64,000 nt of DNA from an uncultured Pelagibacteraceae bacterium (lineage in GTDB: Bacteria > Pseudomonadota > Alphaproteobacteria > Pelagibacterales > Pelagibacteraceae), in NCBI GenBank assembly GCA_902594915.1, contig CACJOA010000001.1, positions 78,832 through 142,831 on the forward strand, written 5' to 3'. The notes below the pieces were generated by a model. That model made no database searches. It saw nothing but the letters and a program-made list of their open reading frames with translations, and was not told where the DNA came from. A program made the translations under genes and the position numbers. Shown one piece after another: positions 59,595-64,000 of the stretch; position 1 is the stretch's first letter; each line of letters opens with the position of its first letter.

Positions 59595-60722
59595 TTAAGT
59601 AATTTTTTTTTTCTTCTTATCAAGAATCTTTATTTTTTGAAAAATTAATTCAGAAACTTTTCCATTGCCAAATACACTTGATGGTCTCAAGTCTTTTTTA
59701 AGAAAATATACTATAGCTGCTTTAATTTTTTTATAATCATATCCAGTAATAATATTTGTTTTATTTTTAATTGTTATTTGTCTCTCAGTAGTAGTTCTAA
59801 TAGTTACACATGGGACCCCTAATAAAGACGTTTCTTCTTGGATACCTCCAGAATCAGTTAAAACTAATTTGCTATTTTTCATTAAAGATAAAAAATCTAT
59901 AAATTCTAAAGGTTTAATAAATTCAACATATTTGACTAATCCTACTCTCATTTTGTCAATTATTTTTTTTGTTCTTGGGTGGGTTGGAAAAATAAACTTT
60001 TTATTAAATTTTTTTCCTAACTTATTAAACGCTAAAATTAATTTTTTAAACTTTTTTGGATCATCCACAGTTTCTGGTCTATGTAGAGTCATCAGGTAAA
60101 ACTGTTTTTTTTTTAAATGCAACTTTTTAAGAATTTTATTACTTTTAATTTTAGGTGAATATTTTTTAATAATGTCAGAAATTGTATTACCAACTTTATA
60201 AACTTTTTTGTTTAATAAAAGTCTTTCTTTTTTCAAATTATCTAAATCAAATTTTGTTGGAACAAAAAGAATGTCTGAAAGCTGATCAATTAATCTTCTA
60301 TTAATTTCCTCCGGCATTCTTTCATCAAAGGATCTTAGTCCAGCCTCAACATGAGCAATCTTTATTTTGTTTAAATTTTCAAAATATTTTCTGTTGAATA
60401 TAGAAGCAGCAAAACATCCTGCAAAAGCTGTGTTAGTGTCCCCCTGAACAATTAAGTAATCTGGTCTCTCTTTAAACAAAATTTTCTCAATATTTTCTAT
60501 TGTTTTTGAAAAAAAACTCCCATAGGTTTTATTTATTGCTTTAATATTATACCTTGGTTTTGGTATTTTAAAAAAATCAAAAAAAACATCACTCATTATT
60601 TTAATGTAATGTTGATTTGTATTTATTAAAAAAAAATTAACTTTGTTTTCTTTTAAGATTTTTATTAGTGGGGCGAGCTTGATTATTTCTGGTCTTGTTG
60701 ATAATACGATACAAATTTTCAT
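59595..60722 (-). CDS. wecB: UDP-N-acetylglucosamine 2-epimerase
   Basis: 375 aa; STRPEIIKLAPL, HVEAGLRSFDERMPEEINRRL, TDSGGIQEE. Confidence 0.93.
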   Translation of the reverse strand: MKICIVLSTRPEIIKLAPLIKILKENKVNFFLINTNQHYIKIMSDVFFDFFKIPKPRYNIKAINKTYGSFFSKTIENIEKILFKERPDYLIVQGDTNTAFAGCFAASIFNRKYFENLNKIKIAHVEAGLRSFDERMPEEINRRLIDQLSDILFVPTKFDLDNLKKERLLLNKKVYKVGNTISDIIKKYSPKIKSNKILKKLHLKKKQFYLMTLHRPETVDDPKKFKKLILAFNKLGKKFNKKFIFPTHPRTKKIIDKMRVGLVKYVEFIKPLEFIDFLSLMKNSKLVLTDSGGIQEETSLLGVPCVTIRTTTERQITIKNKTNIITGYDYKKIKAAIVYFLKKDLRPSSVFGNGKVSELIFQKIKILDKKKKKIT

Positions 60723-60805: not shown

Positions 60806-62050
60806 ATGAGATTATTAAAAAACAGATTCTCTCTTTTGCTACTGATTTTAATCCCAATATTATCTTTATTTATTGGTTTTATTTTCAATGAAGACTTGTC
60901 TACTGGTGGCTCAAAATGGGATTTTAATCTTACATGGACAGTTGTAGAAAAATATTCTAACTTAGAATTCGAAGATGCCAATGAATACACAAGACATTTT
61001 CCTCTACACTACTTTTTTCTATCTTTTTCTCATTCAATTTTTAATGACCAGAAATTAGTCAGATTATTTTATTTAATTTTCAGTTTTTCTCTACCGATTT
61101 TCTTATTTTTAAATTTAAGAAAGATTTATAAATTTAAAGAAATAAATCTTATTATATTTAGTTTTAGCTTTTTATTAATTCCACTATTTAGGGCTGAAGC
61201 TATTTGGGCTAATTCCCACTTAACAGCAACAATTTTTTTTCTTATAGGTAATTTTTTTTATCTTAAAAGTTTAGAAAAAAATGTTTTTTATTTTAAATTG
61301 ATAAACTTATTTTTTTTAGCACTAGCAACATACTGCCTTCAAACTTATGTAATTTTATATCTTTATTATTTATCAAAGTACTTCCTAAATGAAAAATTTA
61401 GAGTTTTTACCTCACTTTTTTTATTCTCATGCTTACTCGGTATCCCTGGTCTTTATTTCATTTACTTAAATCCAAGAACATCAAATTTAACTATTACACA
61501 GGATTTTTATTACACATTTATAACAAATATTTCTATAATGTTTTTTTTCTTATGTTTTTTACTTTGTAATTTAAAAACTATTAAAGCTTTGAAAAATGAA
61601 ATTTTTATTTTAAAATTTTGGGAAATTTTGATACTTTTCATAGTAGCTGGATTTGTATTAATAAATCTGGATTTTAATCTTTTAAAATCAAATCTAAAAG
61701 GTGGGGGATTTTTTTTTAAATTATCCCACTTCATTTTGAAAAATAATTTAATATTTATCATGTCTTTTTTAATAGGTCTTTTTGTGAGTGCTTTAATAAT
61801 TAAAAAAGAAAAAAAAATTTTTTTTATTTTTTTAATAATGTTTTTAATGGCTTTAAATTTCCAGATATATCAAAAGTATTTTGAACCATTGTTTCTAGTT
61901 ATGTTTTGTGTATTATATAAAAATTTTTTACTAAGTAATATTTTAAACAATTTAAAAAATATTCTTTCCTTTTATTCTTTGATAGTTATTTATTTTATTA
62001 TTGCATACATCAATTATCTTAATAACTTTTCTCATAAATTAGTTATTTAA
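60806..62050 (+). CDS. Polytopic membrane protein, GT39/PMT-like
   Basis: 414 aa, about 11 hydrophobic segments; GT39-like HFPLHYFFLS region. Confidence 0.55.
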   Translation: MRLLKNRFSLLLLILIPILSLFIGFIFNEDLSTGGSKWDFNLTWTVVEKYSNLEFEDANEYTRHFPLHYFFLSFSHSIFNDQKLVRLFYLIFSFSLPIFLFLNLRKIYKFKEINLIIFSFSFLLIPLFRAEAIWANSHLTATIFFLIGNFFYLKSLEKNVFYFKLINLFFLALATYCLQTYVILYLYYLSKYFLNEKFRVFTSLFLFSCLLGIPGLYFIYLNPRTSNLTITQDFYYTFITNISIMFFFLCFLLCNLKTIKALKNEIFILKFWEILILFIVAGFVLINLDFNLLKSNLKGGGFFFKLSHFILKNNLIFIMSFLIGLFVSALIIKKEKKIFFIFLIMFLMALNFQIYQKYFEPLFLVMFCVLYKNFLLSNILNNLKNILSFYSLIVIYFIIAYINYLNNFSHKLVI

Positions 62051-62773
62051 AAATTTTTTAAAAATTATCAATTTTAAAGTTAAAAAAATTGTCTTCATAA
62101 TTTTCATTTTACTTTTTCCTATTTTCTTATCGTAACCAAGTATAAAAGGAATTTCTTTTAAATTTACAGAATTAAAACTATTAGTTAAAAAAATAATTAT
62201 TTTGGCTGCAATATTAAAGTCTTCATTTTTAAAGAATGTTTTATCTTTTAAAATTTTTTTTATCAAATAAAATTTATAAGCTCTAAAATTACAAGTATAA
62301 TCATTTAAGTTTTTGAATGGATAAAATAGCTTAAACAAATATTTTGCTCCATAACTCATTATTAATCTAAAAAAAGTGACACCTTTTACCTTTGAATTTT
62401 TTTGAAATCTTGATGCAATTACTATGTCATTTGAATTTTTTATTTCTTTGAACATGCCAGAAATAATTTCAATAGGGTGCGTATTATCACTATCAAGTGT
62501 TATAACTATATCTTCGTCATTTGCTATTTCATTTATAATTTTAAAACCAGTTTCCATAGCTATGCTCAAGCCTGAATTTTTTTTATGAGCTTTATAAAGT
62601 AATCGAAAATTACTTTTATAATTTTTAAATCTAATTGAATTATCTGTAGAACAATCATCAATAAGCACTACAGTTATTTTAAGTCTTTCTCTATCTACTA
62701 ATCTCTCAATTTTTTCTAAAATCTTAAGGAGATTTTTTTCCTCATTATATGCTGGTAATAAGATATATATCAT
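62039..62773 (-). CDS. Glycosyltransferase family 2 (DPM1-like)
   Basis: 244 aa; YILLPAYNEEKNLLKIL, VITLDSDNTHPIEII. Confidence 0.9.
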   Translation of the reverse strand: MIYILLPAYNEEKNLLKILEKIERLVDRERLKITVVLIDDCSTDNSIRFKNYKSNFRLLYKAHKKNSGLSIAMETGFKIINEIANDEDIVITLDSDNTHPIEIISGMFKEIKNSNDIVIASRFQKNSKVKGVTFFRLIMSYGAKYLFKLFYPFKNLNDYTCNFRAYKFYLIKKILKDKTFFKNEDFNIAAKIIIFLTNSFNSVNLKEIPFILGYDKKIGKSKMKIMKTIFLTLKLIIFKKFLNN

Positions 62774-62782
62774 ATTAATAAT

Positions 62783-62859
62783 TGGTGCGCCCGGAAGGAC
62801 TTGAACCCTCAGCCTCCTGATCCGAAGTCAGGCGCTCTATCCAATTGAGCTACAAGCGC
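62783..62859 (-). tRNA. tRNA-Arg (anticodon UCG), CCA encoded
   Basis: GCGCTTGTAGCTCAATTGGATAGAGCGCCTGACTTCGGATCAGGAGGCTGAGGGTTCAAGTCCTTCCGGGCGCACCA; cloverleaf pairs. Confidence 0.95.
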
Positions 62860-62973: not shown

Positions 62974-64000
62974 ATGAAAATATTTAAAAACTTAGGGAAA
63001 ATTGATTATCTAAAAAAGATTAAAAAGGTTGAGTTAAATCTTGACTCAATTAAAAAAGGTTTAAATCTTACAGAAGAATTTATAATTTATAAGGATAAAG
63101 ATATTTCAATATACGATCGAATTTGTGACCATAATAGCGGTAAACTTATTTCGAAAAATAATAAAACTTTTTGTCCAATGCATAAATGGGAATTTATACC
63201 TGAGACTGGTAAATACACAAATGGGCTTGTTAAAAAAAAGAAAGATTATGAAATAATAAACAATAAAATTTTAGTTGATGAAAAAATATTTGAACCAAAA
63301 ATAAAAAGTTCGAAAAAAGAGTCAAAAATTAAAGTTAGATATATAAATCACGCATTTTTAATCATTGAGACAAAAAATTACAAATTTGCAACTGACCCTT
63401 GGGCTCTAGGACCAGCTTTTAATACTGGTTGGTGGTTAAAGCATAAAACTATCGCTAATTGGAAAGAGGAATTAAATTCATGTGATTTTATCTATGTAAG
63501 CCATAATCATCCTGATCATTGTCATGAACTGACTCTTTCATACGTCAAAAAAGATATAGATATTATTATTCCAAATTTTCAATCAAATTCTGTAGGTATT
63601 TTACTAGAAGACTTTGGATTTACAAATATCCATAAACTAAATTTTGAAAATCAATATCAGTTTAAAGATACTAATTTAATTTTATCTATATTTAAATCTG
63701 GAGATTTAAGAGAAGATTCTGGTCTGTTTTTTAGTATTGGATCTTTTAAAATACTTTTAACCGTTGACTCAAATAATTTAAATTTTCTTAGACTACCAAA
63801 AGTAGATTTATTTGCCTCGAGTTTTGCAGGTGGTGCTCATGGTTATCCATTAAATTGTGAAAATTATTCACTCGATGATAGAATTAAAATGCTCACAACA
63901 GATAAAAATTTTATCAAAAATACAAAAATCAAATACTTAAAGAATATAAATCCAAAATTTTTTTTACCCTATGCTGGTTTTTTTGAGGAAAGGTTAAAAA
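62974..64000 (+). CDS. Rieske + metallo-beta-lactamase-fold protein, CMP-N-acetylneuraminate monooxygenase (CMAH)-like, truncated at right edge
   Basis: Open frame translated by eye: MKIFKNLGKIDYL...RICDHNSGKLISKNNKTFCPMHKWEF (C-x-H...C-x2-H) then FIYVSHNHPDHCHEL (HxHxDH); runs off window, so absent from ORF track. Confidence 0.75.
   Translation, partial: MKIFKNLGKIDYLKKIKKVELNLDSIKKGLNLTEEFIIYKDKDISIYDRICDHNSGKLISKNNKTFCPMHKWEFIPETGKYTNGLVKKKKDYEIINNKILVDEKIFEPKIKSSKKESKIKVRYINHAFLIIETKNYKFATDPWALGPAFNTGWWLKHKTIANWKEELNSCDFIYVSHNHPDHCHELTLSYVKKDIDIIIPNFQSNSVGILLEDFGFTNIHKLNFENQYQFKDTNLILSIFKSGDLREDSGLFFSIGSFKILLTVDSNNLNFLRLPKVDLFASSFAGGAHGYPLNCENYSLDDRIKMLTTDKNFIKNTKIKYLKNINPKFFLPYAGFFEERLK

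Follow-up and report, generated by a model that had tools for sequence, protein, structure and literature searches.

The 64,000-nucleotide stretch of SAR11 DNA analysed here (the window) was found to end within a gene for a CMAH-type Rieske–MBL hydroxylase, the product of which is probably an oxygenase that adds a hydroxyl group to the N-acetyl moiety of an activated amino sugar, as an optional add-on to a wecB-containing gene module of SAR11. That it is a hydroxylase of the CMAH type, acting on some activated amino sugar, has good support; the domains, the full length, the bacterial kin and the gene linkage were all observed directly. According to a statement in PMC8227644 citing Peri et al. 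2018, CMAH has been reported also in algae and bacteria, and the SAR11 gene is thus a further member of a family with already reported bacterial genes, found in an unusual setting; no report of a CMAH-type gene in SAR11 or beside wecB was found in the open-access literature. With this gene, a relative of the Neu5Gc-forming enzyme of animals is found in a bacterial group that ranks among the most abundant in the ocean; its product would allow CMAH chemistry to be tested in a bacterial system, and may point to a source of N-glycolyl sugars in the environment.

The 5′ part of the gene (positions 62974–64000, plus strand, 342 codons) is truncated at the window end, which is also the end of contig C1; its open frame at 62974–63999 starts with ATG, encodes 342 amino acids and runs past that end. 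An earlier note on this DNA had called for an extension of the contig, and when that genome was searched with a profile, this located the C-terminal part of the protein (171 amino acids, profile positions 395–557) at the end of contig C18, encoded by the 171 codons of the 3′ part of the gene (G000:C18:16636-17148, minus strand). On C18 this part is followed by rluD, rpoH and purA, an order that recurs behind the intact gene of AG-325-D07. By comparison with the AG-325-D07 protein, about 55 codons remain unread between the C1 and C18 parts, giving a complete hydroxylase of about 565 amino acids. An assembly artefact could be ruled out because the gene order is the same in the single-cell assembly AG-325-D07, and a chance motif or a pseudogene because of the Pfam matches and the intact relatives described below.

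It was also clear that the protein contains both of the domains that had been claimed from its motifs, namely an N-terminal Rieske-type C-x-H/C-x2-H pair followed by an MBL metal motif. The Rieske [2Fe-2S] domain (63067–63222, plus strand; residues 32–83 matched) has its ligands C51/H53 and C67/H70 in the motifs C-D-H (51–53) and C-P-M-H (67–70), and the MBL-fold domain (63331–63999, plus strand; from residue 120) carries the metal motif S-H-N-H-P-D-H (176–182). The Pfam Rieske model matched with 27.2 bits (cut-off 20.3) and Lactamase_B_3, C-terminal to it, with 27.9 bits (cut-off 24); with both models above their cut-offs and the Rieske domain first, the arrangement is therefore not due to chance. 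The Rieske Cys/His ligands and the H-x-H-x-D-H motif were kept in all full-length members of the family.

Having established the domains, we considered the possibility that the protein is a UlaG-like MBL hydrolase, with the Rieske domain serving another purpose and no hydroxylase activity. Most MBL folds are indeed hydrolases, and a UlaG-type hydrolase model gave a weak match. The best PDB matches of the family profile were, however, the MBL-fold oxygenases FrsH (E 5e-9) and CmlA (E 2e-6), which also came out on top in a Foldseek search using a predicted structure of low confidence (mean pLDDT 54.8), and the presence of all the Rieske ligands implies a role in electron transfer, which together make a hydrolase unlikely. 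The MBL-fold diiron beta-hydroxylases CmlA and FrsH are thereby the nearest solved structures for the SAR11 MBL domain; they are not known to have an N-terminal Rieske domain, and use amino acids as substrates.

The order of Rieske, MBL and C-terminal domains is that of CMAH, and this part of the earlier proposal stood, over the full length of the protein and with close full-length kin; the hydroxylation had rightly been put forward in that note as an inference. An unverified mammalian CMAH sequence could be aligned over its whole length with the SAR11 proteins as well as the other alphaproteobacterial ones, at 25–30% similarity, and grouped with them (94/92 support) in a tree made without the Rieske part; with such a sequence, this apparent likeness to animal CMAH over the full length is to be taken as a lead only. 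NamH, which combines a UlaG-type MBL domain with a Rieske domain, is known to hydroxylate the N-acetyl group of muramic acid (PMC10050696), a precedent that speaks for an N-acetyl hydroxylase here too. A NamH-like (Rv3818-type) role in N-glycolylation of UDP-MurNAc for peptidoglycan would agree with the domain types and with the chemistry, in which the N-acetyl group of an amino sugar becomes N-glycolyl. We nevertheless regard that role as highly improbable. NamH relatives on actinobacterial plasmids have the order MBL, SCP2_Rv3818, Rieske, whereas the Rieske domain is N-terminal in the SAR11 protein, in which the SCP2_Rv3818 model found no match. The similarity is furthermore weak and confined to the MBL part (E 5e-8), which is also the only part through which NamH-like proteins matched this CMAH sequence; NamH falls on a separate branch of the tree, and the SAR11 loci have no peptidoglycan gene directly beside the hydroxylase.

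Scanning 84,980 species genomes, we found five other full-length SAR11 relatives that were 51–78% identical to the window protein, with frame and motifs conserved; as the scan needs exact peptide patterns, these five loci are a lower bound. Two distant relatives, about 29% identical, were found in another alphaproteobacterial genus. Full-length members were rare in whole-genome samples (2 of 397 genomes in the order, 2 of 240 in the class and 1 of 399 in the phylum, each count including the window's genome, which is the sole member in the phylum sample), the remaining SAR11 matches being MBL-only proteins of mostly about 450 amino acids. The phage records and viral contigs searched held no relatives of the hydroxylase, and a phage origin was rejected on those grounds.

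In five of the six SAR11 loci (the window, AG-325-D07, AG-426-P20, AH-287-O20 and AG-343-I16) the hydroxylase gene lies beside wecB, a membrane protein gene and a GT2 gene. For the window, the neighbours named in the earlier note were mostly confirmed. The gene at 59595–60722 (minus strand) is wecB, for the non-hydrolysing UDP-GlcNAc 2-epimerase that makes UDP-ManNAc, matching PF02350 and the equivalog model TIGR00236 (310 bits, cut-off 210). The GT2 glycosyltransferase gene at 62039–62773 (minus strand) matched PF00535 with 75 bits; ArnC- and PpgS-type models matched it below their own cut-offs, and its product may be of the polyprenyl-phosphate sugar synthase type. The hydroxylase gene is inserted beside a tRNA-Arg gene (anticodon tcg, 62783–62859, minus strand), which also flanks the module in loci L041, L085 and L086. 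The label GT39, given previously to the gene at 60806–62050 (plus strand), found no backing, as sequence searches of Pfam, NCBIfam and PDB gave no match. This gene encodes a polytopic membrane protein with invariant N-E-D-L and R-H-x-P-x-H-Y motifs in the alignment, for which those searches and a fold search yielded no family or usable fold match; a structure-based identity was dropped, the model being too poor and its fold matches meaningless. We infer that it may be GT-C-like. Its relatives occurred in 83 of the 397 genomes of the order, several adjoining tRNA genes, with relatives at 45% identity or more in only four, the window's included.

The module genes have a low G+C content (19–26%) and were found together with the hydroxylase at three unrelated sites, namely tRNA-Arg/rluD (two genomes), tRNA-Met/transaldolase (two genomes, differing in gene order) and tRNA-Thr/DedA (one genome). 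In two further genomes (G198 and G324) the tRNA-Arg site holds the three-gene module but no hydroxylase gene. The locus had been thought to mark the border of a surface-glycan region; what we found was instead a module of three to four genes amid housekeeping genes, with rluD, rpoH and purA directly downstream. The five module-linked SAR11 members form one clade in the tree, outside of which AG-447-M05 makes up the deepest SAR11 branch; its unlinked copy (L045:2598-5891) is a single gene flanked by fabI and a type IV pilin-like gene, and the module membrane protein was not found in that genome. As separate observations, the AG-325-D07 module holds an extra gene for a 274-residue protein without a Pfam match (L041:7022-7846), possibly a methyltransferase, and in another genome (G342, L088:2731-6858) a related set of wecB, GT2 and membrane protein genes abuts a tmRNA gene, another tRNA-like insertion point.

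With regards to the substrate, animal CMAH acts on CMP-Neu5Ac, whereas the genes linked to the one in SAR11 are wecB and those of a membrane glycan module, not sialic acid genes. This setting points to N-glycolyl sugars that are not sialic acids, and we tentatively place UDP-ManNAc, or another UDP-HexNAc, slightly ahead of a CMP-nonulosonate. The enzyme might alternatively be imagined to act on CMP-Neu5Ac or CMP-Leg5Ac7Ac like animal CMAH, with its proximity to wecB reflecting co-inheritance in flexible islands, a reading that we consider possible although somewhat doubtful. It would agree with the homologues in two genomes of the other alphaproteobacterial genus, each being the last gene of a legionaminate operon, preceded by genes for LegB-like, LegC, NeuC, NeuB, NeuD, a nucleotidyltransferase and a CMP-sugar synthetase (LegC, NeuC, NeuB and NeuD above cut-offs in the first genome; the same operon at 67–88% identity in the second). 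These operons also speak for the main reading, a hydroxylase of activated amino sugars. AG-447-M05, furthermore, has a legionaminate-type cluster of NeuB, NeuC, nucleotidyltransferase, cytidylyltransferase and a DegT-type aminotransferase, which, in a genome without the module membrane protein, favours a CMP-nonulosonate there. The earlier note had looked to nonulosonate genes near the hydroxylase; none were found nearby, the window genome's own neuC (above cut-off), neuB-like gene (below cut-off) and cytidylyltransferase lying beside rRNA genes on another contig, where the O-chain cluster of SAR11 is known to lie (PMC11898729). Their presence in the genome, as well as the vicinity of MBL-only relatives to NeuB, would also fit a CMP-nonulosonate. 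NeuB was, however, not enriched in carriers of the hydroxylase (four of six, against 100 of 150 relatives) and was unlinked to it where present; it was unseen in two carriers with incomplete genomes, and one carrier has PseI instead. That the hydroxylase and the wecB module occur together at three sites unrelated to one another likewise argues against this substrate.

Returning to a UDP-HexNAc as the preferred substrate, the Rieske cluster would hand electrons to the metal site in the MBL domain, and that site, together with O2, would hydroxylate the N-acetyl group of the activated amino sugar to N-glycolyl, the resulting sugar being destined for the cell surface. WecB would make UDP-ManNAc within the module, the GT2 protein would put a sugar onto polyprenyl phosphate, and the membrane protein would transfer the polyprenyl-linked sugar to a surface acceptor. 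It is conceivable, if far from assured, that a CMAH-family enzyme has here switched from CMP-nonulosonates to UDP-ManNAc or other UDP-HexNAc, making N-glycolyl-hexosamine surface sugars as an optional part of a recurring tRNA-side module. Such sugars might conceivably also serve to alter the cell surface in defence against phages.

Finally, the MBL-only SAR11 relatives lacking the Rieske domain (L005–L021; L107:8874-10148), of about 420–450 amino acids, had NeuB within 10 kb in 7 of 12 cases, and these proteins may represent an uncharacterised nonulosonate enzyme.
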